Positions 2,298-59,567 of a stretch of 64,000 nt of DNA are shown piece after piece (position 1 is the stretch's first letter; each line of letters begins with the position of its first letter). The position numbers were made by a program, and so were the translations under genes. This DNA is from Saccharopolyspora gloriosae (lineage in GTDB: Bacteria; Actinomycetota; Actinomycetes; Mycobacteriales; Pseudonocardiaceae), in the NCBI RefSeq assembly GCF_022828475.1, contig NZ_CP059557.1:372001-436000 (forward strand). Direction: 5' to 3'. The notes beneath the pieces were generated by a model. That model was not told the DNA's origin and did no database searches. It saw nothing but the letters and a program-made list of their open reading frames with translations.

Positions 2298-2455
2298 GTA
2301 GTTGAACTTCAGTCGGTCTCTCGCTGCGGGATCTCCGCCACGAGCAAAGAGCTGTCCTCGCGAGAAACCGCCCGAGAACCCGCCGGTGACCGGCTTTTCG
2401 ACGTGGGCTGTGCGCTTCGCGCCTCCAGGCACGGCCTCCGGCCGCGAGGATCGGG
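2298..2455. repeat. Hairpin repeat family, copy A (eroded, type II tail)
   Basis: This fills the convergent gap between the EEP gene and the sirtuin gene. The core (2298-2387) keeps the family landmarks TCGCTGCGGGATC, GCTGTCCTCGCGAGA and GAGAACCCGCCGG, but the inner stem is deleted to a short remnant and the outer stem has mismatches. The tail after 2395 carries the type II sequence GACGTGGGCT followed by small TTC-loop hairpins such as GCGCTTCGCGC and GGCCTCCGGCC. It appears to be a decaying copy. Confidence 0.75.
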
Positions 2456-3295
2456 TCACGAAGCGACTCGTTGGAGCTCCGCGTCGATGGCCTGGAGCGC
2501 GGGCAGGGAACGTTCCGGGAGGGAGATGCCGCGGCCGTGGCGGACTTCCGGTTCGCGCGGGTTGATGCGGATCAGCGCGCCGGAAGCGGCCGAGGACAGC
2601 TCCGCGTGCCTGCGCACCGTCGGTACCGCGGTCCCCGCACCGAGCTCCACCACCACCAGCCGAGCCGCCCGCAGCGACCGGCGCCACGCCTGGAGCTCGT
2701 CCAGCCGCGGCTGCGCGTGCGCGGGAACCCAGCTCCAATCGCCGAACATCAGGATGTTCGGCCGCGCCGTCCCGCCGCAGTTCCGGCAAGCGGGCAGCGG
2801 TGGCCGCGCGCGCATCGTTTCGACCTCCACCGGAACCGAGAGATCGTCCGCGGGCCACACCTCGTCGGTGCAGGGCTTCAGGCATTGCAGGTGGTGGATG
2901 CTGCCGTGGCACTCGGCGACGTGCTCCGGGGCGAACCCCGCGACCTGGAACTGCCCATCGACGTTCGAGGTGAACACCCGCGCTCCGAGCGGCATCCGCT
3001 GCGCCCAGCGGCGCAGCACCTCGAAGCCCTCGTGCGGCACCGTCTCCCGGTACAACCCGAGCCGGTGCCCGTAGAAACCCCAGGCCAGCTCGGGATCGTC
3101 CGCGAAGTGCACCGGGTCGGCGACCTCCGCGAAGCGGAGCCCGAGCCGCTCGTAAGGCGGGTAGGCCCGCCAGAACCCGGTGTCGCCGCGGAAGTCGGGA
3201 AGGCCGGAATCGACGCCCATCCCGGCTCCCGCGCACACCAGCAGCGCCTCCGCTTCCGCGATCAGTTTCGCGGCGTCGGCGACTTCCGAACCCAC
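2456..3295 (-). CDS. Sir2-family NAD-dependent protein deacylase
   Basis: A 279-residue sirtuin. Motifs in order: VCAGAGMGVDSGLPDFRG (NAD-binding GAGxxxxSGLPDFRG, residues about 17-34), FTSNVDGQ (equivalent of the TQNID box), ECHGSIH (catalytic His) and two Cys pairs for zinc (LQCLKPC and CRNCG). It should remove acyl groups from lysines using NAD, but acyl specificity cannot be read here. The start chosen is GTG at 3295 (VGSEVADAAKL) because GAGGAG lies nine bases upstream; the frame is open further upstream without a better start. It lies 82 bp downstream of mhuD on the same strand. Confidence 0.85.
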   Translation of the reverse strand: MGSEVADAAKLIAEAEALLVCAGAGMGVDSGLPDFRGDTGFWRAYPPYERLGLRFAEVADPVHFADDPELAWGFYGHRLGLYRETVPHEGFEVLRRWAQRMPLGARVFTSNVDGQFQVAGFAPEHVAECHGSIHHLQCLKPCTDEVWPADDLSVPVEVETMRARPPLPACRNCGGTARPNILMFGDWSWVPAHAQPRLDELQAWRRSLRAARLVVVELGAGTAVPTVRRHAELSSAASGALIRINPREPEVRHGRGISLPERSLPALQAIDAELQRVAS

Positions 3296-3377
3296 CGTCC
3301 GGTGCTCCTCATCGTTCGTTCCGGCGGGCGCCGCGCCCGCCGGGCGGCCGACGCGGTGCTCACCTGATCCGGCCGCG

Positions 3378-3686
3378 TCACGCGTCCTTGTGCTTCTCCT
3401 GCACGACCTCGAACTCCAGCAGGTTCGAGCCGGTGGCGACCGTGTTCTTGTGCTCACCTGCGTGCGCGGCCTTCGCCGGACCCTGCGCCCAGTTCTGGAA
3501 GTCCTCCTCGGACTCCCACTTCGTGTAGACGAAGTACCGGTTGTCGCCCTGGACGGGCCGCAGCAGCTCGAAACCGAGGAAACCGGGGGAATCCTCGACC
3601 GAGCCGTGCCGACCGGCGAACCGCTTCTCCAGCTCGGGGCCGGAGCCTTCGGGAACCTCGATCGCATTGATCTTCACAACAGCCAT
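3378..3686 (-). CDS. mhuD: Haem-degrading monooxygenase, MhuD ortholog
   Basis: A 102-residue ferredoxin-like protein of the antibiotic-biosynthesis-monooxygenase superfamily, close to M. tuberculosis MhuD (Rv3592), which cleaves haem to mycobilin and iron without releasing CO. The N-terminus MAVVKINAIEVPEG, the block GFLGFELLRPV and the end SNLLEFEVV match the mycobacterial protein. The residues that matter in MhuD are all present: N7, W66 and the haem-ligating H75. Its position near mutY and radA repeats the mycobacterial order. A role in haem iron acquisition is an inference from the family. Confidence 0.9.
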   Translation of the reverse strand: MAVVKINAIEVPEGSGPELEKRFAGRHGSVEDSPGFLGFELLRPVQGDNRYFVYTKWESEEDFQNWAQGPAKAAHAGEHKNTVATGSNLLEFEVVQEKHKDA

Positions 3687-3762
3687 GTACTCAGACTACG
3701 GCTGCCTCCGAGACCTGACGAACAGCGCGGCGGCGGTGCGCACGGGACGGGACACGCCCGGC

Positions 3763-7087: not shown

Positions 7088-7117
7088 GATTCCGCCCTCC
7101 GGCCGGGAAGAGGCCGC

Positions 7118-8837: not shown

Positions 8838-8843
8838 CCGGAA

Positions 8844-10318: not shown

Positions 10319-10490
10319 GGTAGCGGAACCTCAGCGGCTTCCTCGCTGCGGGATCGATTTCTCATGTGTGCCGTGCACAGCGAAATCGCTGTCCTCGCGA
10401 GGAAGCCGCCGAGAACCCGCCGGTGGTCGTTTTGCTCTAGCCGGTCACTGGTCATCGGCTTCGCCGCTGAGAAGACAACGATCAACTGAT
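10319..10490. repeat. Hairpin repeat family, copy B (type I tail)
   Basis: This lies between lpqE and radA. The core runs 10319-10424, starting with GGTAGCGGAACC. The outer stem pairs 10330-10346 with 10397-10413 (one mismatch). Unlike the other copies, the inner stem is CGATTTC/GAAATCG (10355-10361 with 10382-10388), so the usual T-rich inner stem has been swapped for another paired sequence. The tail (about 10440-10475) has the type I hairpin CATCGGCTTCGCCG. The bases 10227-10318 between radA and the repeat show no gene. Confidence 0.85.
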
Positions 10491-16785: not shown

Positions 16786-17110
16786 GTGGCGGAACCTCAG
16801 TGAGCCTCTCGCTGCGGGATCTTTTTCCCTAGTGGCTCCGCCACGAGGGAAAAAGCTGTCCTCGCGAGAGGCTCACTGAGAACCCGCCGGTGGTCGTTTT
16901 CTTGACGTGGGCTATGTGCTTCGCACATACAGGCACGGCCTTCGGCCGCAAGGCAGGCGTGGCTTCGCCCGCCCTTCGCGGGCTTCGCCGCCGACTGCAT
17001 GGCTTTGCTGCGAGGCGCGGCCTTTGGTCGTAAGGCAGGCTTTGCTTCGCTTGCCCTTGGCGGGCTTCGCCGCCGATTGCATGGCTTTGCTGTTGCCACG
17101 GCCGGTTTGC
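16786..17110. repeat. Hairpin repeat family, copy C (complete core, long type II tail)
   Basis: The best preserved core. The outer stem CTCAGTGAGCCTCTCGC (16796-16812) pairs perfectly with 16864-16880. The inner stem CTTTTTCCCT (16821-16830) pairs with AGGGAAAAAG (16846-16855), and the apical hairpin is GTGGC/GCCAC. The internal loops TGCGGGAT and CTGTCCTC are the family constants. The type II tail (about 16905-17110) has GACGTGGGCTATG, the TTC-loop hairpins TGTGCTTCGCACA and CGGCCTTCGGCCG, and two degenerate units of the roughly 60-bp GC-rich repeat seen in copy D. It lies between the converging rlmB and LURP-like genes. Confidence 0.92.
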
Positions 17111-24615: not shown

Positions 24616-24671
24616 CCGCGGCTCCTCGCCGCAGCCGCCCGCCCGAGCGAACGCTCGCCGCTTCGGAGAGA

Positions 24672-25026
24672 AGTGAACGGACCGTTCGTCCAACGAGATC
24701 GGACGAACGGTCCGTTCACTTCGAGGGGCTGGGGTTGATCGGCGGCTGCGCGGGGTGCGGCGGCGTGCTTGCGGGGTGAGTGAACGGACCGTTTGCCCAG
24801 TGGGATCGGACGAACGGTCCGTTCACTTCGAGGGGCTGGGGTTGATCGGCGGCTGCGCGGGGTGCGGCGGCGTGCTTGCGGGGTGAGTGAACGGACCGTT
24901 TGCCCAGTGGGATCGGGCCAACGGTCCGTTCACTTCATTCCGGGGACGGCGCGGCGTGGCGGTGATCGCGTGTGGTGGGAGTGAACGGACCGTTTGCCTC
25001 ATCTAGTTGGACGGACGGTCCGTTGA
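24672..25026. repeat. Tandem array of four GTGAACGG/CCGTTCAC palindromes
   Basis: Palindrome 1 has perfect 20-bp arms, AGTGAACGGACCGTTCGTCC (24672-24691) with 24701-24720. Palindromes 2 (24779-24827) and 3 (24886-24934) have 17-bp arms with single mismatches. Palindrome 4 (24980-25026) is imperfect. Units 2 and 3 sit in a 107-bp direct duplication (24721-24827 and 24828-24934) whose spacer TCGAGGGGCTGGGGTTGATC is identical. The array fills the gap between the end of msiK and the znuA regulatory region. It may act as a multiple terminator or as a protein-binding array; it has no coding content. Confidence 0.85.
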
Positions 25027-25107
25027 CTCGGCCCGCGAGGCGTCGCCCGGTGCCGGGCGGCACGATGCCCCCGCCGGGAGCGGGGGCATCGGTGTGCGGA
25101 GGTGGAC

Positions 25108-27539: not shown

Positions 27540-27852
27540 GCCCCGCCAGCCCCGAGGCGGCAAAGCAAGCCCGCCTCGCGGCGAACCCGCACCTTGCGGC
27601 GATAGCCGTTGCCTCGCGGCGAAGCCGTGCTCTGCGGCGATAGCCGTTGCCTCGCGGCGAAGCCGTGCTCTGCGGCGAAGCCGTGCTTTGCGGCGAAGCC
27701 GTGCCTGGATGCGCGAAGCGCATAGCCCACGTCAAAAGGCCGACCACCGGCGGGTTCTCAGGTGTCTTCTCGCGAGGACAGCTTTTTCCCTCGTGGCGGA
27801 GCCACTCGGGAAAAAGATCCCGCAGCGAGAAGACACCTGAGGTTCCGCCACC
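27540..27852. repeat. Hairpin repeat family, copy E (reverse orientation, type II tail)
   Basis: The core is at 27744-27852. The outer stem CTCAGGTGTCTTCTCGC (27757-27773) pairs perfectly with 27825-27841, and the inner stem and apical GTGGC/GCCAC are intact. The tail runs leftwards with GCGCGAAGCGC (counterpart of the TTC-loop hairpin) and an array of GCGGCGAAGCCGTG units, including a 38-bp tandem duplication near 27610-27685. The repeat occupies the gap between the converging LacI-family and spermidine synthase genes. Confidence 0.9.
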
Positions 27853-45354: not shown

Positions 45355-45387
45355 CTGCCCGCCCGGTCGTTTTGCTTGGGTGGTCGG

Positions 45388-45970
45388 GTGGCGGAACCTC
45401 AGCTGTCTTCTCGCTGCGGGATCTTTTTCCCTAGTGGCTCCGCCACGAGGGAAAAAGCTGTCCTCGCGAGAAGACAGCTGAGAACCCGCCGGTGAGCGGC
45501 TTTGTGACGTGGGCTATGTGCTTCGCACATACAGGCACGGCCTTCGGCCGCAAGGCAGGCGTGGCTTCGCCCGCCCTTCGCGGGCTTCGCCGCCGACGGC
45601 ACGGCTTCGCCGCGAGGCAGGCGTGGCTTTGCCCGCCCTTCGCGGGCTTCGCCGCCGACGGCACGGCTTCGCCGCGAGGCAGGCGTGGCTTTGCCCGCCC
45701 TTCGCGGGCTTCGCCGCCGACGGCACGGCTTCGCCGCGAGGCAGGCGTGGCTTTGCCCGCCCTTCGCGGGCTTCGCCGCCGACGGCACGGCTTCGCCGCC
45801 AGGCAGGCGTGGCTTTGCCGGCTCTTTGCGGGCTTCGCCGCTGGCTGCGTGGCTTTGTCGGGAGGGTGGCGGGGCTTTGGGTGCCCTGTGGGCTTCGTCG
45901 CGGGTTTGGCTTCGTTGCCCGTTGGGTGGCGGTCGCCGGGGGCTGGCGCGCTCCGGTGGCCTTGGCTCTG
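45388..45970. repeat. Hairpin repeat family, copy D with a 62-bp tandem array in its tail
   Basis: Core 45388-45494: the outer stem CTCAGCTGTCTTCTCGC (45398-45414) pairs perfectly with 45466-45482, and the inner stem and apical hairpin are as in copy C. The type II tail begins GACGTGGGCTATG at 45506 and leads into a tandem array with exact 62-bp period (GACGGCACGGCTTCGCC at 45595, 45657, 45719 and 45781), then decays by about 45860. Because 62 is not a multiple of three, the reading frame rotates each unit, so the array is not protein-coding. The repeat lies between the converging methyltransferase and ADP-ribosylglycohydrolase genes. Confidence 0.92.
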
Positions 45971-45971
45971 C

Positions 45972-47021: not shown

Positions 47022-47343
47022 GCGGTGGGCTCCTTCTCGGGCATTGCTGTGGCGGTGGTCGATCAGTGCCCGACTCTACTGGGCGGTATCGCGAGCGCGG
47101 TGGCGATCCGGCAACCGTGGACATCTTCGCCGCGTGAGGCCGCGCACCCTGGCATCCGGCCCGAGATCCGTGAATGATCAACTTTCCGGCGCCCCGACAG
47201 GTTGATCGGCGCGCCTGCCGGATGCTCGGCGACCATACCCCTCGTTCGGCCGATCGGGTGACGGCGCGGATGGTATCGGTGGGCGCTGCTCGAAGATCGC
47301 TACCGTGTGTCGGCTTCGCCGGTAGTGGACTCCGCGAGCTTGA
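47022..47343. promoter_or_regulatory. Divergent region between the ADP-ribosylglycohydrolase and AfsR-type genes
   Basis: These 322 bp between two outward-facing genes must carry both promoters. I see no clear palindromic operator or SARP-type direct heptamer repeat. Confidence 0.35.
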
Positions 47344-50300
47344 GTGACCGAAACTGACGAGGATCGAATACGCAGCGAACGGCAGGTGTCGAGGGGCATG
47401 CAAGGGCAGGACGCAGCGCCCGGAAACAACGTGGGCACCGGAAACAACGTGGGCACCGGAAACAACGCGGGCACCGGAAACAACGCGAGCACCGGAAACA
47501 ACGCGGGCACCAACGGGGCGGGCACCAACGGGGCGGGCGGCCCGTCCTCTGCGGGCTTCACCTTCCACGTGCTCGGCCCGCTCGAAGTCCGCTACGACGG
47601 AACGCCGCTGCGACTCGGCTCCGCCTCCGTGCGCGGCGCGTTCGCCTGCCTGCTCATGGAACCCAACCAGCTCGTGTCCATCGACCGGCTGATCGACACC
47701 CTCTGGGGCGACGAACCGCCCGCCACCGCCCGCACCATCGTGCACGGCTACATCTCCCGCATCCGGCGCCTGCTGCACGGCCACGGGGACGCCGACGCCG
47801 CCGGTCGCCCCGAAGTCCTCACCCGCTCACCCGGTTACCTGCTGCGCATCGACCCCGAACGCGTCGACGCGCACCGCGCCCGGACGCTGATCAACGAAGC
47901 GCACGGCAAAGACCCGGCGGCCAGGGCGGCGCTGCTCAACGAAGCGCTCCAGCTGTGGCGCGGACCGGTGCTCTCCGGCATCGTCGCCGAACGGCTGCAC
48001 CAGATGGTCGGCCCCAACCTCGACGAGCTGCAGCTGCTCGCCTTAGAGGAACGCATCGCGGCCGAACTGGAACTGGGCAAGCACCACCGGCTGGTCATCG
48101 AACTGTCCGCGCTCGTCGACCAATATCCGCTGCGGGAACGCCTCACCTACCTGCTGATGCTCGCCGGCTACCGGGCCGGGAACCGCGCCGAAGCCCAAGC
48201 CCGCTACCACGCGCTGCGGGAACGCCTCTCCCACGAACTCGGCATCGATCCCGGTCCTGAGGTGCGCACCCTCTACGAACGGCTGCTGCGTGACGACGAA
48301 GCTTTGCTCAGCGGCACCCAGCGGCAAGCCGACCGGGAAGTCGCCCCCGTCGGTCCGGTCCCCGCCGAATTGCCGCCCGCCGTCGCCGGATTCGTCGGCC
48401 GCGACCGGGAAATGGTGATGCTGGACCGGATCGTCGAACGCGATCGCGGCGACACCACGCTGCTCGCCGTGCTCACCGGCACCGCGGGCGTCGGCAAGAG
48501 CGCCGTCGCGATCACCTGGGCGCAGCGGGTCGCCGCTTCGTTCCCCGACGGCCAGCTCTACGCCTCACTGCGCGGTTTCGACTCCGAACGCGCTCCGCTG
48601 TCCCCGGGGGAAGCGCTCACCAGCATGCTCAAGACGCTCGGCGTGGCCGCCGACGCCATCCCCGTCGACCTCGACGACCGGGCCGCGCTGTACCGCTCGT
48701 TGCTCGCCGACCGGCGCGTGCTGGTGCTGCTCGACAACGCCCGCGACTCCGAACAGGTCCGGCCGCTGCTGCCCGGCGGCTCCCGTTCGCTGGTGCTGGT
48801 GACCAGCAGGCGCAGGCTCGACGGGCTCGTGGTGCGCAGCGGTGCCCGCGTGCTGCCGCTGGAGACGCTGCCCACCGAATCCGCCGTGGAACTGCTCGAC
48901 CGGGCGGGCGGCATCGACGGCTCCGCCGAAGAACCCGAAGCCGCGCGGGAACTCGCCGAGCTCTGCGGCGGACTGCCGCTGGCGCTGCGCATCGCCGCCG
49001 CCCGGCTCGCCGCCAACCCCGCCCGCGGCATCGCGGGACTCGTGCACGAACTCACCGATGAGAGCAATCGGCTGCACGCGCTGGACATCGACGACGCCGA
49101 CACCAGCGTGCGCCGCGCCTTCGACATCTCCTACCGCAACCTGCACCCCGTGCACGCCGCGACCTTCCGGCAACTCGGCCTGGTGCCGGGGCACACGTTC
49201 ACCGCGCACGCCGTGGCCGCCGTGTGCGAAACGGATCCGCCCGGCGCGTACCGCCGGCTGCGGGCGCTCGCGCTGGCGCACCTCGTCACCGAATCCGAAG
49301 CGGACCGGTTCGGCATGCACGACCTGCTGCGGCTCTACGCGCGGGAACTGCTCACCGCGCCCGCCGACGACGGGCGGAAGGAAGGCTTCGCCGAACGCGA
49401 CGAGAAGGCGTTCACCCGGCTGCTGCACTACTACCTCGTGGTCGCCGACCACGCGCGGCGCTTCCTGCGGCCCGCCCGCGACGACCTCGACCTCTCCGGC
49501 GACTCCACCATCGAACAGCCCGAGATCCGCAACCGCACCGAAGCGCTCGCCTGGTTCGACTCGGAGTGGCCCAACCTGGTCGCCGCCGTGCGCGCCGCGC
49601 ACGCCCACGGCCTGCACGAATACGCGTGGCGGCTGGTGCGCTGCCAGTTCAACTACCTGGTGGTGCGCTGCCCGTGGGAGGACTGGATCCAGATCTACAC
49701 CGTGGGACTGGAATCGGCGCGGCTCGCCGCCGACCCCGTCGGCCAAGTGCTGATGCCCGCGGGGCTCGGCGTGGCCTACGCCCGCACCGGCAAGCACGAC
49801 GAGGCGCTGGCGCACTACGCCGACTCGTACCGCTGCGCCGTCGCTACCGGAAACCCCGGATGGCTGGCGTTGGCGCAGGTCAACATGGGTGCCGTGTTGT
49901 TCCGGATGCAGCGCTACGCCGAGGCGCAAGTGCACTGCCGGGACGCGCTGCGGGCCTACCGCACGCTCGGCGACCGCTACCGCGAAGCGGGCGCGCTGAA
50001 CAACCTCGCACAGGTCGAGCAGGCCAACGGGCGGCGTGCCGAAGCACTGGAACACCTGCTGGAAGCCGAGGTGATGTACCGCGAAGCGGACGACCTCGAA
50101 ACCCTGGCGATGGTGCTGAACAACTGCGGAGAAGTCAGCATCGAACTGGGCAGGTTGGACGACGGCGAGGGTTACCATCACGAAGCGCTCAACGTGGCGC
50201 AGCGGTGCGGGTCGGCGATGCACCAGGCATCGGCGTACCTCGGTCTCGGCGACGTGGCGCTGTCCCGCGGCGACCGGTCCGTGGCCCGCACCCGGTGGGA

Positions 50301-50397
50301 GACCGCGCTGTCGATCTACGAGACCGGCGGTTCGCCGCGCGCCGCGCAGGCCAAGACCCGGCTGCAGTCCCTCGACGATCTTCCGCCTGAGTCTTAG
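47344..50397 (+). CDS. AfsR/SARP-type transcriptional regulator with NB-ARC and TPR domains
   Basis: A 1017-residue regulator. Residues about 20-62 are a low-complexity linker built from five GNN[VAS]GT-type units (18-bp DNA repeats) and two NGAGT units. An OmpR-like winged-helix domain (FHVLGPLEVRYDGTPLRLG, about 75-165) and a bacterial transcriptional activation domain (to about 320) follow. Next is an NB-ARC ATPase: P-loop GTAGVGKSA near 379-387, VLVLLDNARDSE, and CGGLPLALRIAA. The C-terminal 280 residues are TPR repeats. Such proteins activate antibiotic or developmental genes, and no biosynthetic cluster is adjacent here. GTG 47344 is used as start; ATG 47398 is an alternative. Confidence 0.88.
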   Translation: MTETDEDRIRSERQVSRGMQGQDAAPGNNVGTGNNVGTGNNAGTGNNASTGNNAGTNGAGTNGAGGPSSAGFTFHVLGPLEVRYDGTPLRLGSASVRGAFACLLMEPNQLVSIDRLIDTLWGDEPPATARTIVHGYISRIRRLLHGHGDADAAGRPEVLTRSPGYLLRIDPERVDAHRARTLINEAHGKDPAARAALLNEALQLWRGPVLSGIVAERLHQMVGPNLDELQLLALEERIAAELELGKHHRLVIELSALVDQYPLRERLTYLLMLAGYRAGNRAEAQARYHALRERLSHELGIDPGPEVRTLYERLLRDDEALLSGTQRQADREVAPVGPVPAELPPAVAGFVGRDREMVMLDRIVERDRGDTTLLAVLTGTAGVGKSAVAITWAQRVAASFPDGQLYASLRGFDSERAPLSPGEALTSMLKTLGVAADAIPVDLDDRAALYRSLLADRRVLVLLDNARDSEQVRPLLPGGSRSLVLVTSRRRLDGLVVRSGARVLPLETLPTESAVELLDRAGGIDGSAEEPEAARELAELCGGLPLALRIAAARLAANPARGIAGLVHELTDESNRLHALDIDDADTSVRRAFDISYRNLHPVHAATFRQLGLVPGHTFTAHAVAAVCETDPPGAYRRLRALALAHLVTESEADRFGMHDLLRLYARELLTAPADDGRKEGFAERDEKAFTRLLHYYLVVADHARRFLRPARDDLDLSGDSTIEQPEIRNRTEALAWFDSEWPNLVAAVRAAHAHGLHEYAWRLVRCQFNYLVVRCPWEDWIQIYTVGLESARLAADPVGQVLMPAGLGVAYARTGKHDEALAHYADSYRCAVATGNPGWLALAQVNMGAVLFRMQRYAEAQVHCRDALRAYRTLGDRYREAGALNNLAQVEQANGRRAEALEHLLEAEVMYREADDLETLAMVLNNCGEVSIELGRLDDGEGYHHEALNVAQRCGSAMHQASAYLGLGDVALSRGDRSVARTRWETALSIYETGGSPRAAQAKTRLQSLDDLPPES

Positions 50398-50721
50398 CAG
50401 CTCAAAAAGTGTCCACTGTAGACGTTTAGCCGACGTTTAGCCGATGTCTAGCCGGGGCTGCGACAGTGACTTTCGTGCGGGTCAGCGTGATGAACGGCCC
50501 GCACCGGGTGGCACTGGGGGAAATCCGAGGGGGGATTGCCGCCCGGCCGTCCCGGCCGAGCCCGTGCGAACGGGCAACGGTCGGGGCGGACGCTCCGGAC
50601 GGGGCACTCGGAGCGATCCGGGAGGACGTGGGGGTGGGTGCGGACCTTTGGCCTGGGGGAATCCAGAGGTCCGCACTTCGTCTTTTCTCTTTGTCGCGTG
50701 GATGGCCTGCGTAAGGGGTCT
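50398..50721. other. Intergenic region with a run of hairpins
   Basis: Successive inverted repeats follow the AfsR-type gene: GTGCGGG/CCCGCAC (about 50474-50504), CGCTCCG/CGGAGCG (about 50590-50615) and the terminator at 50638-50676. No gene is visible. The region ends at the target duplication of the IS481-family element. Confidence 0.5.
50638..50676 (+). terminator. Terminator upstream of the IS element
   Basis: A 10-bp stem GTGCGGACCT (50638-50647) with AGGTCCGCAC (50667-50676), followed by TTCGTCTTTTCTCTTTG. It probably ends the AfsR-type transcript. Confidence 0.7.
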
Positions 50722-50727
50722 GGTAGC

Positions 50728-51834
50728 TGTTGTGTCTCGGGAGGTTGTGAACGGGGGACACGGGGCGGATGATCTTGGAATGAGTGAGGACCTCCGGGTT
50801 CGGTGTGGATCACGACATCTGCACCGAATACCTGGAGGTCCTCGTGTGTCACCGTAACGCTCCGTTGACTGAGACGGGCAGGCTGCGTCTGGCTCGGTGT
50901 GTCGTGGACGATCGCTGGCCGTTGCGGCGTGCGGCTGAGCGTTTCCAAGTCTCGCCCAGCACCGCGCAACGGTGGGCGGATCGGTATCGCACCGAGGGCG
51001 AGGCGGGGATGGCAGACCGGTCCTCGCGTCCGCATCACAGTCCGCGGCGCACTCCGTCGCGCACCGAGCGGCGGATCATCAAGGTCCGGGTGATCCGCCG
51101 GTGGGGGCCGGCACGGATCGCGTTTTTGCTGGGCTTGAACCCGGCTACCGTGCACCGGGTCTTGGGCCGCTACAGGCTGGCCCGGCTCGCACACCTGGAC
51201 CGGGCCACCGGGCGGGTGATCCGCCGCTACGAGTACCCGCAGCCCGGCGGCCTCGTCCACGTCGACATCAAGAAAGTCGGCAACGTCCCCGACGGCGGCG
51301 GCAGCAAAGTCCTCGGCCGCCAGGCCGGCAGCCACAACAGCCAGGCCACCGTCACCGACCGCCGCCGCGCCGGCGGGAAGAAACCCGCCATCGGCTACAG
51401 CTACCTGCACAACGCCGTCGATGACCACTCGCGGCTTGCCTACACCGAAATCCTTCCCGACGAGACACGCGAAACCGCCGCCGCGTTCTGGCAACGAGCA
51501 CACACATTCTTCACCGATGCCGGGATCACCGTGCTCCGAGTACTGACCGACAACGGCTCCTGCTACCGCTCCCACCTCTGGACCGCCACACTCACCGCCG
51601 CCGGCATCACACACCTCCGCACCCGCCCCTACCGACCCCAAACCAACGGCAAAGTCGAACGCTACAACCGCACCCTGCTCGACGAATGGGCCTACGCCCA
51701 GCTCTACCTCTCCGACACCGAACGCCGAAACGCCCTCCCACACTGGCTCCACACCTACAATCACCACCGCGGCCACACCGCACTCGGCGGCCACCCACCC
51801 GCCAGCCGCGTCCCCAACCTCACAAGACACAACA
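50728..51834 (+). mobile_element. IS481-family insertion sequence with target-site duplication
   Basis: The element is 1107 bp. The left end TGTTGTGTCTCGGGAGGTTG (50728-50747) matches the reverse complement of the right end (51815-51834) at 18 of 20 positions. GGTAGC lies directly before the left end (50722-50727) and directly after the right end (51835-51840), which is a 6-bp target duplication as expected for this family. Joining the flanks across one GGTAGC rebuilds the start of a hairpin repeat (GGTAGCGGAACCTCAG, as in copy B), so the element inserted at the edge of copy F. It looks complete and possibly active. Confidence 0.92.
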
Positions 51835-51839
51835 GGTAG
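50844..51839 (+). CDS. IS481-family transposase
   Basis: A 331-residue DDE transposase. The N-terminal HTH part (RLRLARCVVDDRWPLRRAAE onwards, residues 10-55) matches the IS481 family start VCHRNAPLTETGR. The catalytic core has the first Asp in LVHVDIKKVG, the second in VLTDNGSCYRS and the Glu in KVERYNRTLLDEWA. The start is GTG 50844 with GGAGG upstream. The frame runs through the right inverted repeat, and its TAG stop (51837-51839) lies in the duplicated target DNA, so the insertion site supplies the stop codon. Confidence 0.93.
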   Translation: MCHRNAPLTETGRLRLARCVVDDRWPLRRAAERFQVSPSTAQRWADRYRTEGEAGMADRSSRPHHSPRRTPSRTERRIIKVRVIRRWGPARIAFLLGLNPATVHRVLGRYRLARLAHLDRATGRVIRRYEYPQPGGLVHVDIKKVGNVPDGGGSKVLGRQAGSHNSQATVTDRRRAGGKKPAIGYSYLHNAVDDHSRLAYTEILPDETRETAAAFWQRAHTFFTDAGITVLRVLTDNGSCYRSHLWTATLTAAGITHLRTRPYRPQTNGKVERYNRTLLDEWAYAQLYLSDTERRNALPHWLHTYNHHRGHTALGGHPPASRVPNLTRHNR

Positions 51840-52010
51840 CGGAACCTCAGCGGCTTCCTCGTTGCGGGATCTTTTCCCGAGTGGCTCCGTCACGAGGGAA
51901 AAAGCCGTCCTCGCGAGGAAGCCGTTGAGAACCCGCCGGTGGTTCATCTGCTCTAGCTGGTCACTTCTCAGCGGTTTCGCCGCTGAGAGGACACAGATCA
52001 ATAGATCATC
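51835..52010. repeat. Hairpin repeat family, copy F (type I tail), split from its left flank by the IS element
   Basis: Core 51835-51942: the outer stem CTCAGCGGCTTCCTCG (51846-51861) pairs with 51914-51929 with one G-U type pair. The inner stem CTTTTCCC/GGGAAAAAG is intact and the apical hairpin is present with one changed base. The type I tail has the hairpin TCTCAGCGG/CCGCTGAGA with loop TTTCG (about 51966-51988). It lies between the converging transposase and GDSL hydrolase genes. The bases 52011-52153 contain no recognisable gene. Confidence 0.9.
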
Positions 52011-52153
52011 TGTTCAGGTGCCTCGGGGCTCAGGAGCCGTGGAAGCGATCGTTGGGGACGACCTTCCGCACTCCGCCGTCGCCGCACGCCGGGGCCGGGG
52101 AAGGTTCTGGAATCCATCCCCTCCACGGCGTTCGACGCGGGTCCAGCCGCTGG

Positions 52154-52999
52154 TCAGTTGGTGTGGTGCTGGTTCGAGCGGTCCGCCGTTCGGGGGGCCG
52201 CTGTGCAGAGTTGTTCCAGTTGGGGGCGCTTGGGGCCACGGCCATCGCCGCTGGAGCGGCCTCGGAGGCGGCGGACGATCCAGGGGGCCAGGTACTCCCT
52301 CGCCCACTGGAGGTCGTCGGCGCGCTGGGCTCGCCAGGGGCGGGTGGGGAGTTCCGGCCAGGGAGTGCGCCAGTCCTCGTCGATCTCCACGCCCAGCGCT
52401 TCGCAGGCTCGGGACGCGACTCGGCGGTGGCCTTCCGAGGACAGGTGCAGGCGGTCTTCGTCCCACGCGCGCGAATCCTGCAGCACTCGCATCGACCACA
52501 GGTCGATCACGTAGCAGCCGTGCTTGTCGGCGATCGCCCGAAGATGCGCGTTGTAGGTGCCGACCTTGCCGCGTACGCGGCGCAGCACCGGCGTCGTCGA
52601 CGTGTCGAAACCCGTGCCGATCAGGACGTCCGAGCCGATCGCGTGCAGGCGGGTCACCGCGTCGTCGAACATCGCGGCCAGCTCATCCGGGTCGCTTCCC
52701 GGGCGGATGATGTCGTTGCCGCCGCCGACCAGCGACACCAGCGCGGGCCGCAGCTCCAGCGCCTGCGGCACCTGATCCTCGGTGATCTGGCGCAGCAATT
52801 TGCCGCGCACCGCCAGGTTCGCGTACCGCAGCCGCGGGTTGTCCACCGTCAGGTGCTCCGCGAGGCGATCCGCCCAGCCGCGGTAACCGCCGCCGGGGGA
52901 CGGGTCGGCGATTCCCTCCGTGAAGCTGTCGCCCAACGCCACGTAACTCGGCCAGTTCGCCCGCCGTGCGTTGTCACCCGTGTGCTCCCGGCCGTTCAT
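52154..52999 (-). CDS. SGNH/GDSL-family hydrolase
   Basis: A 281-residue esterase-like protein. Block I is YVALGDSFTEGIADP (nucleophile Ser in GDSF), block II has Gly in AVRGKLLRQ, block III is GGGNDIIRPG (Asn), and block V is DRLHLSSEGHRRVA (Asp and His). There is no signal peptide, so it is probably cytoplasmic. The C-terminal 70 residues are basic and outside the fold. The start is ATG 52999 with AGGAGGG upstream. The natural substrate is unknown. Confidence 0.88.
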   Translation of the reverse strand: MNGREHTGDNARRANWPSYVALGDSFTEGIADPSPGGGYRGWADRLAEHLTVDNPRLRYANLAVRGKLLRQITEDQVPQALELRPALVSLVGGGNDIIRPGSDPDELAAMFDDAVTRLHAIGSDVLIGTGFDTSTTPVLRRVRGKVGTYNAHLRAIADKHGCYVIDLWSMRVLQDSRAWDEDRLHLSSEGHRRVASRACEALGVEIDEDWRTPWPELPTRPWRAQRADDLQWAREYLAPWIVRRLRGRSSGDGRGPKRPQLEQLCTAAPRTADRSNQHHTN

Positions 53000-53311
53000 C
53001 GGCCCTCCTCCTGCGCTTGTTCTGGCCCGCCAGAGAACACACTGGTCCTCCGGAGACGACTTACGCCACCGTCGGTTATGGACGAGTGATTAACGGCACC
53101 TTGTGGTCTCGGTTCCGATAAAGGTGCGCGATCGCTTCGTGATCCGGATACCGCCGGACGTGGGAGACGGCACACCTTGCCGAACAGGGGTGATGGATGG
53201 CACGCGCGTGCACCCGCGGGAGTAAAGGTGGCTTACCGGGAAACGGCGGTATGTCTCGAACTCGGCTGCTAATGTCGCTCGGCGGTAACAGAAGCGACGA
53301 GGGGGCTCGTG
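53000..53311. other. Intergenic region upstream of the Pro-rich/EspG genes
   Basis: A divergent gap between the GDSL hydrolase and the following small frames. It should carry promoters for both sides. There is no clear operator and no conserved gene on either strand. Confidence 0.35.
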
Positions 53312-53554
53312 ATGTCGCGATCGACGCAGGTGGCGACCCTGCGCGCGGTGGGGGACGTCGTCGTCGCAGTGGTCGATCGACCCCTGGCGCGACCGACTGC
53401 TACCGGCGCGGAACACCAGGTGACAGGCACCTGAGTGGGGAACGACGGCAGGACCGGGCACGTCGTGACGACGGTGCCCAGTGCACTGATGCGGGACGCT
53501 CGGGCGAGGAGTCCGCGGCGACCGAAGTGCATCCGAGAGCTGGGGGAGAAGTGA
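53312..53554 (+). CDS. Two abutting small frames upstream of the Pro-rich protein
   Basis: ATG 53312 follows GAGGGGG by a few bases and opens a 40-codon frame (MSRSTQVATLRAVGDVVV...) ending at TGA 53432-53434. The next codon in the same frame is GTG (53435), which opens 39 more codons (VGNDGRTGHVVTTVPSALM...) ending at TGA 53552-53554. That stop overlaps the GTG of the following gene in the GTGA form used for translational coupling. The proteins are not recognised. They may be two tiny proteins, one frame interrupted by a stop, or non-coding leader. Confidence 0.3.
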
Positions 53555-56525
53555 CGTCACCGCACAATCCGGCGGCGCCGGGACCGGCGGGCCACCCGCC
53601 GCCCGTGCCGCACAGGGCGGCCGACGCGGGCGCCGGCCCGCGGCAACTGCCCCCGACGCGGGATGCCGGACGCGGTGACGCCGCCCCAGCGAGGCAGATC
53701 GGCCGGCCAGCTCCGGGCGTGGCGACCCGCCGCCCGGCACCGCCGGCGCGGCAGGCGAACGGATCCGGCGGTGCTCGGGTCGGCGGCGAACTCGGACCCG
53801 ATGTCACATTCCGGAGTGAACCGATGCCTCCCGAATTCGGATCGCGAACGTCCGAGGAGTCCTTTTCGGCCGGTGAGACCGTTGTTTCCCACGGGCCACT
53901 GATTTCCGAAGAGTCCCATTATTCCGAATCGCTTCTCGGTGGTGAGCACCTGATGTCCGGGGAATTCGGGGAGTCCGGTGCGGGTAAGCCGCACGATGCG
54001 GCCGACTCGCCCGGTGGTGACGCCGGGTACGAGGACGAGCTCCGAGGCGGCGAACCGCGCCGGTCGTCCGCCGAGTTCCGCCGCGTCGGTGACCTCCAGT
54101 CTTCGGGTGAGCTCCCGGTGCCGCCCGGCCCCGGTGAATCCCGGCCTCCGGAACAGCCGCCGCAGCCTGATCGGGCGCAGGACTCGGATCGGGCGCAGCG
54201 GGATCGGCCGCAGCGGCCGGGACGCCCGGCCCCGGGCGGGCCGCCGTCGGCCGAACGGCAGCCGCCGTTCTCCGGGCAACTCCCGCCCCGGTCACAGCCT
54301 CCGCAACGCCCCGGCACGCCGGTTCACGGCGTGCTCGGCTCCGCCGGCGAGTTATCGGCGCCCGGCGAGGTCCGGTCGGGGGAGCTCCATCCGGATCCCG
54401 CCCCAGCCCCGGACGCACGGCCCGACGAACCGCCGCGCCACGCAGGGCCTCGACCGGCCGCCCGGCCGGGCGGGTTCGACCTGCGGTCCGAGTTCGCGGC
54501 GCTGGCCACCGAGCCCGACCCGTTCGCGCTCTGGGAACGCATCGAGCGACTCGGGGAGCGATTCGTGCACGCGCGGCGCAGGCCCGCTCCCCGGCCGCGG
54601 CCCGCGCAGCCGGAACGGCTCGACCCGGCCGGTGGAACGTCCGCGTTGTCCGGTGATCTGGCCGGTCTCGCGGAGCAGTTCCGGCCCGATGCCGGTCCCG
54701 CCGACCAGCGCGAAGACGCCCGGCCGAGCGGGTTCTCCGGGCCGCTGACGGGTGCGTTGCCGCAGCCCGGCGCCGAGGCGGCCGCTGAGCCACCGCCGGG
54801 CGCGCAGTCGCCCGCGTCGCCGCACGATCGAACCCGGCCGGGAGCCGGTCGTTCGCGGCCGCCGCAGGTTTCTCAGCCGCCGCAGGTTTCCGGGCAGCCC
54901 GATGCGGGACCGCAGCCGCCGCCGCGCCCGTCCGGGCTCGACGGCGACTCCGTTCAGGACGGGCTGACATCGGGGCGGCTGCCCGCGCCGGAATCTCCGG
55001 CACCGCCGCACGTCGGTGAGCCGGTTCCGGCACCGGCTTCGGCGCGGATTCCGGTCGGCCCGCCGCCCGGCGGACCGCACCCGTACGGCCAGCACGCAGA
55101 CCAGCAGTCATCCGGTCCGCACTCGGTCGGCCCGCAGCCGGGACCGCAGCAGGCCGGGCCGCCATCGACAGGGCCGCAGCAGCCCGGACCACAGCCCTCG
55201 GGACCGCCACCGACCGGACCGCAGCCCTCGGGGCCGCCACCGGTCGGGCCGCAGGGCGGGCCGCCACCGGGGCCTCCGCCACCGGGCGGGCAGCAGGCGC
55301 CGGTGCCGCCGATGTTCCACGGACCGCCGCCGAATTCGAACGAATGGGCCGCCGCACCGGGGCCTGGGCAGCCGCCGCAGGGGCGGCCGCAACCCGGTGC
55401 GCCCCAATCGGGACGACGGCACGCCGAACCCGAACAGCCGGAACCTGAGGACCTGTTCGGATTGCCGGAGGCACCGGCCGCTTCCGGCGGCCTGATCGGA
55501 CCACCCGGCGAGGTCGAGGAGCCGCCGCGACCCGGCGCGCCCGGACAAGGCCCGCCGGGCCGCGCCCCGGACCAGCAGCCGGCCCCGCCGGGGCACCGAG
55601 CAGGCCCGCCGCAGATGCCGCACCGTGTTCCTGGCCAGGCCGGGGAGCCGACGCCGGACGCCGCCCGCGCGGTGCCGCCCGGCCGGCCACCCGTTCCGCC
55701 CGAGGCCGCCCGGCGACCGGAGCCGATGTCGCCGCCGGGAGGCATGCCGATGCCCCCCGGAGCGGAACCGATGTCACCGCCTCGTGGCATGCCGATGCCG
55801 CCCGCCGGGGGCCGATGCCTCCAGAAGCGGCGCCGCCGATGCCCGCCGGGCCTGGTCCGGTCTCGCCGCCGCGCGGCATGCCGGCCCCCGGCGCGGAACC
55901 CACGCAGGCACCGCCCGCCGCAGCGGCGGACCCTATGCGTCCGCCGCAGGCGGGACCACGTCCGGAGGGACCGCCGATCCAGCAGGGCGGCCCGCCATCG
56001 GGTCCCCACAACCGGCCGCCGATGCCGCCGCAGCAACCTCCGCCGCCCCAGCAGCAACCCGCGCCGCAGCAGCAGCGGTTCGAGCAGCCGCCGCAGCATC
56101 CCGGGCAGCAGCAACAGCCCGAGCAGCCGCCGCAACCTCCGCAACGGCCAGAGCCGCATGCCGGGGACCAGCAGCAACCTCCGCAACGGCCAGAGCCGCA
56201 GCAACCTCCGCAGCGGCAGGTCGACCGGTACGAGGCACGCCCCGACGGCGGCTTCGGCCCGATGGGCTCCAAGGCGCGGTCGTCGACGTCGCGGTCCGGT
56301 CGCGGTTCCCGCCGCACGTCCTGGACCGCGGAGGAGATCCAGCCGGAGTCGCGCGAGCGCGAGTTCAGCACCGGCGGCTACCGGCCCGGAGAGGCAGGAC
56401 CGAACGAGCGAGGCCCGCAGTTCCTCCTCGAAGCCGACGACGTCTACGACGAGGAGTACGGCGGCGGACGCCTGGTGGCGCCGCCGGTGCTCGGCGAAGC
56501 ACCGCCGGGCTACCGCGACTTCTGA
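53551..56525 (+). pseudogene. Long Pro/Gly/Gln-rich disordered protein, frame broken at about 55808
   Basis: The first frame starts at GTG 53551 (VTSPHNPAAPG) and runs about 750 codons. After PMPPRG-type repeats (MPMPP) the frame is lost in a G5 run at about 55808-55814, and the reading continues in the next frame (PMPPEAAPPMPAGPG) to the stop at 56525. One extra G would join them into a protein of about 991 residues. It is almost entirely low-complexity (P, G, Q, A), with one ordered-looking segment (GFDLRSEFAALATEPDPFALW, about residue 308) and an acidic C-terminus (FLLEADDVYDEEYGGG). I recognise no domain. Its EspG-like neighbour suggests a type VII secretion link. The break is probably a sequence error. 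Confidence 0.6.
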
Positions 56526-56605
56526 CCCGCGACACGCTCTGATCCCCTGGTTCACCGGCGGGCTCCGCGGGAGTCCGCCGTACCGAAGGTGAGATACGAC
56601 AGCCG

Positions 56606-57304
56606 ATGGTCGACACGATCGCCCTCTCCCTGCCCGCCGTGGACGTGCTCGGCGAGCAGCTCAACCTGGACGTCCGGCAGTACCCGTTCGAGCTGTCCCG
56701 CCCGGAGGAGTCCGCCGAGGAACGCGCCAGGCTGGTGGCTCAGGTGTGGGCGGAACTGGAAGCCTCGGGTCTCGCCGTAGACGGCCGCCCGGAGCCGGAG
56801 GTCGAGGACGCGCTGTACCTGTTGTGCGGCTCCGAGGTGTCCATCGCCGCCGCCGGTCTGGTCGACGTGCGCACCGGGCAGCGGCTCGCCGCGCGCGTCG
56901 TCGCGACGGGTGAGGTCGGTGTGGTGGGGGTGCTCGACGGGCGGCGGCTGCACTTGGAGTTCCTCGACCCGCACGACTTGCCGGAGGTGTGCGCGGACCT
57001 GCTCCCGCAGGCCCCGGCGGCCGCGGGCGAAGCGGTGCGGGCCGAGCGCACGGCCCGGTCCCGCGCGCTGGAGGAGATCATCGGACGGCCCCGGCATCGG
57101 ATCGGCCACTTCCTGGTCTCCGGAGCCGACCGGCGGACCGGTTCCTCGTCCGCGCATCCCGGCTTGACCTGGTTCGACAACGACCTCGGCCGCTTCACGC
57201 TGTTCGGCGAGCCGTCCACGGACGTGCTGACCTGCGCCCCAGGAGACAGGGGTGCGATCGCCGACCGACTCGCCGACCTCCTGTCCCGAGTCGCCCACGA
57301 CTGA
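56606..57304 (+). CDS. EspG-family type VII secretion chaperone
   Basis: A 232-residue protein resembling ESX secretion-associated EspG proteins, which bind PPE-type substrates in the cytosol and deliver them to the ESX machinery. Family-like elements are the start DTIALSLPAVDVLGEQL, an alpha/beta pattern with VSIAAAGLVDVRTG, GVVGVLDGRRLHLEF, RPRHRIGHFLVSG and GLTWFDNDLGRFTLFGEP. No PPE, PE or WXG100 gene is adjacent, and no EccC ATPase is in the window. The upstream gene is the Pro-rich protein, 80 bp away. Confidence 0.68.
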   Translation: MVDTIALSLPAVDVLGEQLNLDVRQYPFELSRPEESAEERARLVAQVWAELEASGLAVDGRPEPEVEDALYLLCGSEVSIAAAGLVDVRTGQRLAARVVATGEVGVVGVLDGRRLHLEFLDPHDLPEVCADLLPQAPAAAGEAVRAERTARSRALEEIIGRPRHRIGHFLVSGADRRTGSSSAHPGLTWFDNDLGRFTLFGEPSTDVLTCAPGDRGAIADRLADLLSRVAHD

Positions 57305-57404
57305 GAGCCGAGAGCCCTTCGCAGAACGACCTGCGTAGCGGGTCGGGAACGCCGGCGGTGCACTGCGGGATCGACGTCTCGTGCACATCAGCGATCTTGT
57401 TCGG

Positions 57405-57565
57405 TGTGTTGTCAGCGGCGAAGCCGTGAGCAGCGACCATCCAAGCAAGCCGACCACCGCCGGGTTCTCAGCCGGTTCCTCGCGAGGACGGCGTTTTCCC
57501 TCGTCGCGGAGCCACTCGGGAAAGAGATCCCGCAGCGAGGAACCAGCCGTGGTTCCGCTGCCACC
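57405..57565. repeat. Hairpin repeat family, copy G (reverse orientation, type I tail)
   Basis: The core is at 57454-57565, read on the minus strand. The landmarks GAGGACGGCGTTTTCCCTCG and GAGATCCCGCAGCGAGG are present. The inner stem TTTCCC/GGGAAA is paired, while the outer stem (CAGCCGGTTCCTCGC with GCGAGGAACC) has a few mismatches. The type I hairpin GTCAGCGGCGAAGCCGTGA lies at 57411-57429. It is the only copy between two genes in tandem (EspG-like and DUF3159). The bases 57305-57404 and 57566-57667 show no gene. Confidence 0.8.
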
Positions 57566-57667
57566 TTGCTACCCGGACCGTCGCGACGGAATCCAACGTG
57601 TGATTCGCATCCGCCGCCGACTGGTGGGTGCGTGGACGGGCGCGGGTGCGGCAGGCTGGGGAGTGTG

Positions 57668-58411
57668 ATGCGGGAGCGGCAGACCGGGCGGGCACCTACC
57701 GGCCCGGAACCGGGCGACCAGGAATCGGGTGTCCCTGGACCAGGTGCGGAGCGGGATTCGTTGATGCGGCTGCTCGGCGGCCGCACGAGCGCGCTGGACG
57801 CCAGCTTGCCGCCGGTGCTGTTCGGCCTCGGCTGGTACGTCGGCGGCGAATCGATCGCCGCCGGTGGCGTGGCGGCCGTCGCGGTCGGTGCGGTGCTCGG
57901 CGGGTGGCGGCTGCACAAGGGCGCTCGTCCGCTGGCGGTGCTGGTGAGCCTGCTCGCGGTGCTGCTCGGCGCGGTGCTCGCGTTGTACACCGGCAACGCG
58001 GCGGACTTCTTCCTGGCGCGGCTGGTCACCAACGCCGTGAGCGCGTTGATGTGGATGGTGAGCATCGCGGCCCGCTGGCCGCTGCTGGGCATCATCGTGG
58101 GCACGCTGCTGGGGCAGGGGCGTGGCTGGCGGCGCGATCCGGCGCTGCTGCGCGGCTACAGCCTGGCGAGCTGGGTGTGGGTCGGGCAGTACGTGGTGCG
58201 GCTGCTGGTGTTCATCCCGCTGTGGCTGGCCGATGCCGTGCTGGCGTTGAGCGCGGCGCAGGCGATCCTCACGTGGCCGCTGGTGGCCGTGTGCATCGCC
58301 GCGAGCTGGTGGGTGCTGCGTCGTTCGCTGCCCGCCGAGCATCCGGGCATTCGCCATCCACGACTCCCGGGCGAACCTGAACCCGCCGTCCGCTCTGCGG
58401 GTGATGAGTGA
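57668..58411 (+). CDS. DUF3159 membrane protein
   Basis: A 247-residue protein with an N-terminal polar stretch of about 35 residues and six hydrophobic helices. The family-like core reads LLGGRTSALDASLPPVLFGLGW at about 35-56 (22 residues, named here only by its conserved G and P positions), then TGNAADFFLARLVTNA and AARWPLLGIIVGTLLGQGRGWRR. Its function is unknown. The start is ATG 57668; GTG 57665 is adjacent. The stop lies 8 bp from the stop of the converging kinase gene. Confidence 0.78.
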   Translation: MRERQTGRAPTGPEPGDQESGVPGPGAERDSLMRLLGGRTSALDASLPPVLFGLGWYVGGESIAAGGVAAVAVGAVLGGWRLHKGARPLAVLVSLLAVLLGAVLALYTGNAADFFLARLVTNAVSALMWMVSIAARWPLLGIIVGTLLGQGRGWRRDPALLRGYSLASWVWVGQYVVRLLVFIPLWLADAVLALSAAQAILTWPLVAVCIAASWWVLRRSLPAEHPGIRHPRLPGEPEPAVRSAGDE

Positions 58412-58419
58412 GCCGGCGT

Positions 58420-59367
58420 TCAGATTCCCGGGTAGCGGGGCGCGGCCGGGTCGTGGTCGAGGGCCGCGAGCCAGGCCGCTCCTGCGGCGCCCGGTCCGGC
58501 CAGGTGCAGTGGGGTGCCGGGCAGCCGGGCGCCGAGTTCCGCGCGTAGCGCGGTGCCGACCGGGTTGCCCTCGGCGGTGAGTCCGCCCGCCAGCACGATC
58601 GGCCCGGAGTCGCGGGCGCGCACGGCGGTGTCGGCGAGTTCGACGGCCGCGCGGTCCACGATGCCGGAACCCGCCGGGTCGTCGTCCGCGCAGGCGGCGG
58701 TGACCAGCGGTGCGAGCTCGGCGAGCCGGATCGGTGGCGCCCCGTTCACCGCGGTGATCAGCCGCTTGCGCACCCGGACCGGTTCGTCCGCCGGGACCTC
58801 GTCGAGCACGGTGAGCAGCACTGATCGGGCGAGTCCGGCGTCGGGCACGGCTCCCAGGTCCAAGGTGCGCAGCGCGTGCCGGACCGCTTCCCGGCCGAGC
58901 CAGAACGCCGACCCCTCATCGCCGAGCAGCCAGCCGTGCCCGCCCGCGGAGGCCGTTTCCCGGTGGTCTTCGATCCGGGCGGCGATGGCGCCGGTGCCCG
59001 CGATGAGCACGGTTCCGGTGGCGGCCGAGGTGCCCGCCGCGAACGCCACCTCGCAGTCGCTGACGACCCGCACCGGGCAGTTCAGGCCCAGCGAGTTCCA
59101 GCCCTGCTCGAACAGTCCGGCCACTCGCGGATCCGTCATGGCGCTCACTCCGGCCATGCCGAGCACCGCGGACCGCACCGAGCGCCCGTCGAGCTCGCCG
59201 AGCGCGGCGCGGGCCGCCGCGGTGACCTGCGCGGCGGCGTCCTCCGGGGGATGCGAGTTCGGGTTGCCGCCCCCTGCGGCACCGGCGCCGACGAGACGTC
59301 CGTCCAGATCGCCGACCTGGGCGCGGCTGGAGGTACCGCCGATGTCGAGCCCGAGCACAAACTCCAT
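58420..59367 (-). CDS. BadF/BadG-family ATPase, probable N-acetylglucosamine kinase
   Basis: A 315-residue ASKHA-fold protein. Phosphate-1 motif GLDIGGTSSRA (residues 6-16), the GMAGVS block, DCEVAFAAGTSAATGTVLIAGTG (the adenosine/phosphate-2 region, residues about 105-127) and GWLLGDEGSAFWLG fit bacterial N-acetylglucosamine kinases of this family. The nearby SIS isomerase and DasR-like regulator support an amino-sugar substrate. The start is ATG 59367 (MEFVLGLDIGG). Repeat H lies 41 bp upstream. Confidence 0.8.
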   Translation of the reverse strand: MEFVLGLDIGGTSSRAQVGDLDGRLVGAGAAGGGNPNSHPPEDAAAQVTAAARAALGELDGRSVRSAVLGMAGVSAMTDPRVAGLFEQGWNSLGLNCPVRVVSDCEVAFAAGTSAATGTVLIAGTGAIAARIEDHRETASAGGHGWLLGDEGSAFWLGREAVRHALRTLDLGAVPDAGLARSVLLTVLDEVPADEPVRVRKRLITAVNGAPPIRLAELAPLVTAACADDDPAGSGIVDRAAVELADTAVRARDSGPIVLAGGLTAEGNPVGTALRAELGARLPGTPLHLAGPGAAGAAWLAALDHDPAAPRYPGI

Positions 59368-59408
59368 GCGGTCCGTTGTACTCGCGGAGTGGCCTGCGCA
59401 GGTGGTCG

Positions 59409-59567
59409 GGTGGCGGAACCTCGGCGGCTTCCTCGCTGCGGGATCTTTTTCCCGAGTGGCTCCGCGACGAGGGAAAAGCCGTCCTCGCGAGGAAGCCGCC
59501 GAGAACCCGCCGATGGTCATCTTGATCAAGCTGGTCACTGCTCATCGGCTTCGCCGCTGACAGGACA
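59409..59567. repeat. Hairpin repeat family, copy H (type I tail)
   Basis: Core 59409-59516: the outer stem CTCGGCGGCTTCCTCGC (59420-59436) pairs perfectly with 59487-59503, the inner stem TTTTTCCC/GGGAAAA is intact, and the apical hairpin has GTGGCTCCGCGAC. The type I tail hairpin CATCGGCTTCGCCG lies at about 59543-59557. It sits between two divergently transcribed genes (kinase and amidohydrolase), unlike the convergent copies. The remaining bases to 59729 show only the ribosome binding site of the next gene. Confidence 0.9.

Follow-up and report, generated by a model that had tools for sequence, protein, structure and literature searches.

The intrinsic and bidirectional terminators of high-GC actinobacteria are strong hairpins lying tens of nucleotides behind a stop codon, often between convergent genes. 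Mycobacterial interspersed repetitive units (MIRUs) are actinobacterial intergenic repeats also tied to stop codons; they are prone to tandem arrangement and are not known to carry a hairpin of the kind described below. Here we describe a dispersed hairpin repeat present in eight copies, A to H, in a 64,000-nt stretch of the Saccharopolyspora gloriosae chromosome (contig NZ_CP059557.1, positions 372,001 to 436,000; hereafter the window). Judging from sequence and placement, we read it as a palindrome resembling the repetitive extragenic palindromes (REP), which would multiply in Pseudonocardiaceae chromosomes and be kept mainly as a putative 3′-end hairpin of the gene in front; we give this reading a probability of about 0.45.

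The repeat shares with the terminators a strong hairpin a few tens of nucleotides past a stop and a frequent location in convergent gaps. It is unlike them in being much longer, in forming one genome-wide sequence family with a nearly invariant motif and in its displaced T-run. Set against the general description of MIRUs only, it is alike in the link to stop codons and differs in its hairpin and in the tandem habit of MIRUs. REP, bacterial interspersed mosaic elements (BIMEs) and the REPINs that go with REP-associated tyrosine transposases (RAYTs) are likewise high-copy dispersed extragenic palindromes, some of them close behind stops, and landing sites of insertion sequences (IS), as far as parts of PMC1525189 and PMC12306157 describe them. 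REP measure 21–65 bases (part of PMC1525189), whereas the core of this repeat is ~95 nt long; its internal loop is asymmetric and fixed, its paired arms are hypervariable, and its genome has no match to the RAYT domain Y1_Tnp. Because two tested REP/RAYT features fail, we file it as a variant of the dispersed bacterial palindromes and not as a REP member. Bacterial miniature inverted-repeat transposable elements (MITEs), including the enterobacterial RU repeats, are also short, non-coding, inverted-repeat and spread over many intergenic sites (parts of PMC2759123 and PMC10969869); the repeat differs from them in its conserved secondary-structure motif and its prevailing fixed distance to the stop codon, and neither a parent IS that matches its ends nor a duplicated target was found. 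No description of it appeared among the papers listed by searches of the open-licence PMC literature, nor in the accessible parts of the S. erythraea transcriptome (PMC3610266) and of RepRanger (PMC12306157). In Rfam 15, tRNA was the sole family above cut-off in the window, and none reached the cut-off for copy E.

An amplified hairpin with paired, variable arms

The core 14-mer CTCGCTGCGGGATC matched exactly 216 times in the 6,878,695-base genome of the window (G000) and 0 times as the reversed control; a two-part pattern matched 195 times. In five congeners we counted 304, 127, 106, 16 and 17 matches of the 14-mer, and 68 in a genome of another genus (G018). It was present in 27 of the 120 genomes searched, G000 included, 18 of them having one or two matches only. 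A search with a covariance model (R1: 95 positions, 36 pairs, built from 60 sequences) was positive in 65 of 249 Pseudonocardiaceae genomes and 14 of 46 genera, with at most 16 candidates scored per genome. Hosts among the matches listed (at least 80 loci) were Saccharopolyspora (hirsuta, kobensis, oryzae, shandongensis, elongata and others), Actinopolyspora and Halopolyspora; single matches listed in Streptomyces, Sphingomonas, metagenome bins and others may be chance. Carriage as phage or plasmid cargo was rejected, with zero matches in viral contigs, phages and plasmids, sets from which G000-like records may be left out. Along G000, repeat density was lowest at ~2.6–4.3 Mb (0.25–0.29 per 20 kb against 0.67–1.62 elsewhere, over 80 sampled stretches), i.e. 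this part of G000:C1 is two- to sixfold thinner in the repeat than the remaining chromosome.

The element consists of a ~95-nt imperfect palindromic core with a ~25-nt lead and a variable tail. Direct checking of the window bore out the positions and orientations that a preliminary description had given for the eight copies, and R1 recovered them all: up to an E-value of 1 it returned 16 matches, namely the eight copies, the reverse-strand shadows of seven and one match at chance level (E 0.89). The architecture ascribed to every copy (outer stem, internal loop, inner stem, GTGGC/GCCAC apex) was seen in C, D and E; B has a different apical hairpin, and most of the inner hairpin is gone from A. 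The outer stems of C, D, E and H are indeed perfect over 17 bp each, with exactly complementary arms, and mismatches occur in B, F and G and most of all in A. The stem labels of D and E had been interchanged: on the element strand D carries CTCAGGTGTCTTCTCGC and E carries CTCAGCTGTCTTCTCGC. Folding placed C, E and H, the three copies compared with dinucleotide shuffles, 5.9–11 standard deviations below these on both strands (E −72.8/−74.5, C −75.2/−76.9 and H −70.9/−66.4 kcal/mol). These folds and the 14-mer count against its reversed control exclude chance.

Identity among 60 diverse copies is concentrated in an almost invariant internal motif, UGCGGGAUC / GCYGUCCUC, whose G·U pairs at columns 26–76 (G·U) and 30–72 (U·G) are unchanged in 60 of 60; this constancy is partly a choice of matches, because the copy search was anchored on the motif. 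A hairpin sub-form was observed in L084, L095, L100, L166 and L067, where a longer insert (e.g. TGCCCCTTGCCGGTGTGGCC) replaces TGCGGGATC and the right half is normal. The tails of many copies hold arrays of TTCG-loop hairpins (units such as CACGGCTTCGCCGCAAGG), which differ between orthologs.

The arms vary in a paired manner. Over the 60 diverse copies, standard pairs filled 92.0% of pair cells (80.2% after shuffling). Two-sided paired change affected 23 of the 36 pairs and 246 cells, the latter against a shuffled mean of 78.5 and 44–62 for slid structures; each of the two values was reached in 0 of 500 shuffles. Covariation of the stems round a constant loop, as proposed in the preliminary description, thus stands well above column shuffles and slid controls; taken alone, it is no proof of RNA selection. 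The differences do not come down to a few palindromic ancestors lacking independent paired changes, because paired changes also separate orthologous copies (below). A perfect 17-bp outer stem was found in 183 of 301 deduplicated copies, in 49 distinct sequences. For 41 of these 49, a neighbour lies one pair away, and the 44 such stem pairs divide into 23 transitions and 21 transversions (counted with no tree). Six of the 301 copies combine two known stems; such arm chimeras point to recombination among copies.

Selection on the stem as RNA should make the transcribed strand more tolerant of G·U than of A·C. In element coordinates, the outer-stem cells of 271 matches (252 distinct) held 4417 Watson-Crick pairs, 57 G·U, 83 A·C and 50 others. 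On unique stems, G·U against A·C came to 27 vs 34 in convergent, 16 vs 29 in tandem sense and 10 vs 24 in antisense placements, with no dependence on the direction of transcription (tandem sense against antisense, Fisher p 0.63). Whichever strand was transcribed, A·C exceeded G·U (87 vs 52 over 159 unique stems, binomial p 0.004; 67 vs 47, p 0.07, after removal of stem column 9, in which shared recombinants accumulate); these mismatch p values are only a guide, the stems being related. Strand-specific RNA selection, at which a small first split had hinted (tandem sense G·U 11 and A·C 6, opposite 5 and 12), was erased by the larger set.

Template switching is a described route to compensatory changes and loop inversions (part of PMC8794818). 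The inverted apical loops, two among 100 listed copies and none among the 301, and the exact loop deletions in L199 and L181 are consistent with one arm having been copied onto the other by template switching, as are the transversions in 21 of the 44 one-pair differences. Much of the covariation was probably made by such DNA-level arm copying. Simple arm copying is at odds with the motif's constant G·U pairs, which suggest that the motif is subject to a separate constraint.

Placement behind stop codons and at orthologous loci

Genes were called by our own codon-usage script and not taken from annotation. Within the window, a sense stop lies 27–38 nt in front of copies A, C, D and E, and F has one only through an inserted IS. 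A first sample of 81 sequences (1.664 Mb) contained 79 copies, 4 of them at edges; the 5′-side gene was in sense for 52 of the other 75, where the intergenic bases of the sample predict ~45% by chance, and 46 of the 52 had a stop 21–45 nt before the core. Similarly, sense placement reached 46/56, 25/26 and 15/18 in copy-dense stretches of G001, G003 and G018. The pattern is common to four genomes of two genera.

The pooled set comprised 301 copies, 11 at edges and 290 classified: 149 convergent, 84 tandem sense, 38 tandem antisense and 19 divergent, with zero scored inside a called gene. Sense-placed copies lie at stop +5 to +55 in 203 of 233 cases (median 36), which gives a stable hairpin shortly behind a stop codon to 203 of the 290; by comparison, 10 of 57 antisense-placed copies were within 5–55 nt of a start. 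The tandem-sense copies keep this tight distance in 78 of 84 cases. Uniform placement, calculated for a lead of 25 nt and a tail of 40 nt, predicts 6.5 of 46 tandem-sense copies within 55 nt of a stop, and 43 were observed; for convergent copies the figures were 27.1 expected and 82 of 91 observed.

Window loci were compared with five congeners wherever both flanks align. Locus C, behind a SpoU methylase gene, carries the element in both aligning genomes, and the stems TGAGCCT (G000), CTGCTTC (G001) and CGTCCTT (G002) are all fully paired. At locus E, one of three aligning relatives has it (CTGTCTT in G000, TGCCTTC in G001, each then followed by a TTCG-hairpin array); the site is empty in G002 and G003, where the matched flanks stand 88 and 46 nt apart. 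Locus A is occupied in one of four aligning relatives (G003), loci B, D, G and H in no aligned relative, and F could not be aligned; a motif flag at locus G in G001 was a chance GCGGGATC. At the empty locus D of G001 and G003, a short GC hairpin stands between the convergent stops (read by eye). In high-copy genomes, stem differences can be explained by conversion from other copies.

Genus g34 has 1–4 copies per genome (seven genomes examined, E up to 0.01). An orthologous copy lies behind gatB in five of the seven and is absent from G038 and G182; gatB was identified by Pfam GatB_N and GatB_Yqey in two of the five and by DNA identity in the other three. Among these five orthologs, whose gatB genes are 91–94% identical in ungapped DNA, up to 6 of 17 pairs are changed on both sides yet paired, with at most one mismatch in four of them and four mismatches in G197. 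We rejected gatB as the ancestral founder site, since no listed copy adjoins it in G000 and G018; the gatB copy may be specific to g34.

Possible mobility and rival explanations

An IS481-family element separates copy F from its lead. Elements of the same ends and length occupy the identical position between two GGTAGC in two further copies (L098 and L057), reversed relative to that of the window. In the sequence examined, these three are the only IS with such ends, and each sits in this repeat. The transposase frame of the window IS takes its stop codon, a TAG at 51837–51839, from the target. REP elements are known landing sites for the IS3, IS110, IS4, IS256 and IS5 families (part of PMC1525189); the main text of that paper does not mention IS481.

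The check for a RAYT, which the preliminary description had suggested, gave 0 matches to a Y1-type transposase (Y1_Tnp, PF01797) in G000, in a search confined to this genome and 14 controls and positive in five of the 14; a RAYT-driven REP was rejected on this ground. A MITE with its parent inside was also rejected, as no transposase-bearing relative lay between separated halves. Half-element matches numbered 25 left-only and 26 right-only, many of them visibly degenerate, deleted or cut-off copies; one such match, in L002, belongs to a decayed pair whose halves are separated by 1391 bp. Weak ends resembling terminal inverted repeats were seen by eye in a subset of copies.

The main rival is a selfish element targeting gene ends, a MITE- or REP-like palindrome with no host function whose insertion machinery would seek stop-proximal sites, e.g. 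native terminator hairpins; the motif would then be the recognition site of the mobilising enzyme and the stems would be free provided they pair. Arms common to many copies (TTGGTCT in 16 of 77 of the first sample), the ~20-fold spread of 14-mer counts between congeners, the many empty orthologous sites and the decayed and loop-deleted copies all fit it. We nevertheless hold it to be doubtful: in no copy was a transposase seen between two halves, a copy is kept behind gatB in g34 genomes of so few copies, and target-site duplication could not be shown at empty sites because the intergenic DNA of relatives is too diverged to align. A structured cis-acting RNA, in which the 3′ untranslated hairpin and motif would bind a protein (RNase, Rho-like or stability factor) and regulate the upstream mRNA, would account for the sense placement behind stops and for motif G·U pairs constant on the sense strand in all 60 copies, where DNA arm copying would give Watson-Crick pairs. 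It is improbable, given outer-stem G·U not above A·C in sense-transcribed copies (16 vs 29), a motif that is part of the search anchor and no Rfam family at cut-off.

An architectural role has been proposed for BIMEs. A site that acts at the DNA level, either architecturally or by binding a protein (a cruciform, or a nucleoid or gyrase site in the gap of convergent genes), is here very improbable, since a supercoiling role needs no such distance as the tandem-sense copies keep to the stop, equally tightly. The points in its favour are the 149 of 290 classified copies between convergent genes, the use of the repeat by an IS481-family element as a fixed DNA landing site and mismatches that favour A·C irrespective of the transcribed strand.

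The reading that we prefer, a REP-like palindrome kept as a putative 3′-end hairpin, is supported by congener 14-mer counts that span 16 to 304 and by the placement described above. Further points in its favour are the strong folding of both RNA strands, the short GC hairpin at the empty locus D, the paired changes between orthologs at loci C, E and gatB, the six arm chimeras and the two inverted apical loops. The hairpin would end or protect transcripts in either direction of transcription, and could therefore replace a small hairpin between convergent genes. Its arms would be rewritten at the DNA level, by template-switch arm copying and conversion between copies. The element would be mobilised in trans, and the constant motif may be a handle for a putative factor, either an enzyme or a protein binding RNA or DNA, which would mobilise or exploit the element. 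In its most elaborate form, which as a whole we think unlikely, this would be a mobile 3′-end element that spreads in trans, is delivered just behind stops and supplies a bidirectional terminator or end protector through a motif-reading factor, while arm copying keeps the stem paired and hypervariable.

The terminator guess of the preliminary description gained strong positional support from the stop-proximal sense placement. Several results weigh against the 3′-end hairpin reading. The T-run, where present, lies ~8–10 nt past the outer stem and not directly after it (by eye). A simple terminator scan of 44500–60500 picked up nothing more than sub-stems, located within or next to E, F and H (9 sites in all vs 5.1 in shuffles, with loop and stem limits that could not span the whole hairpin). 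Antisense placement applies to 57 of the 290 classified copies and, in the window, to B, G and H, which have no sense stop in front. Nothing in the mismatch counts points to selection on the transcribed strand as RNA, the mobilising enzyme was not found in the searches above, and most relatives lack the element at aligned orthologous sites. Finally, the gatB-clade element lies between codirectional genes that nearly abut in G038, where the next gene apparently begins a few nt past the gatB stop (read by eye); this argues against a terminator role, because termination there would cut off the downstream gene.

Covariation is usually taken as proof of a functional RNA; here it is strong and lacks the expected wobble pattern. 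In its hundreds of natural replicates about half of the one-pair changes are transversions, and loops are on rare occasions inverted or exactly deleted; the family thus allows a direct test of the share of covariation that DNA template switching makes alone. The tight placement raises the question of how a repeat with no enzyme found so far reaches or stays at gene ends. If transcripts do end there, the repeat would be a mobile source of terminators in actinobacteria. It is a good natural test of how hairpins spread and survive, and perhaps of how they end or protect transcripts.

Features of the window

Coordinates and surroundings of the eight copies and of the inserted element (window positions).
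Feature	Position	Strand	Remarks
Copy A core	2303..2381	+	degenerate, inner hairpin shortened; 27 nt behind stop of endonuclease/exonuclease/phosphatase-family gene (1277-2272, +)
Copy B core	10325..10418	+	GATTTC-type inner stem; no sense stop in front
Copy C core	16791..16885	+	stem TGAGCCT; 33 nt behind stop of SpoU methylase gene (15783-16754)
Copy D core	27752..27846	-	stem GTGTCTT; 38 nt behind stop of spermine-synthase-like gene (27888-29399, -)
Copy E core	45393..45487	+	stem CTGTCTT; 35 nt behind stop of S-adenosyl methyltransferase gene
Copy E tail	45485..45949	+	tandem 62-bp units of short TTCG-loop hairpins
IS481-family element in lead of copy F	50728..51834	+	1107 bp; LZ_Tnp_IS481 and rve domains; GGTAGC at 50722-50727 and 51835-51840
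Copy F core	51841..51934	+	separated from own lead by the IS481-family element; nearest stop belongs to the IS
Copy G core	57462..57556	-	stem partly mismatched; no sense stop in front
Copy H core	59415..59508	+	stem CGGCTTC, G-C pair in place of A-T (CTCGG/CCGAG); no sense stop in front

Two further repeats were observed in the window. Between genes at 24633–25028, a 49-bp inverted repeat, AGTGAACGGACCGTT...AACGGTCCGTTCACT, occurs in four near-tandem copies, possibly operator sites. At 47393–47511, 18-bp tandem repeats lie mostly within the called frame 47398–50397.

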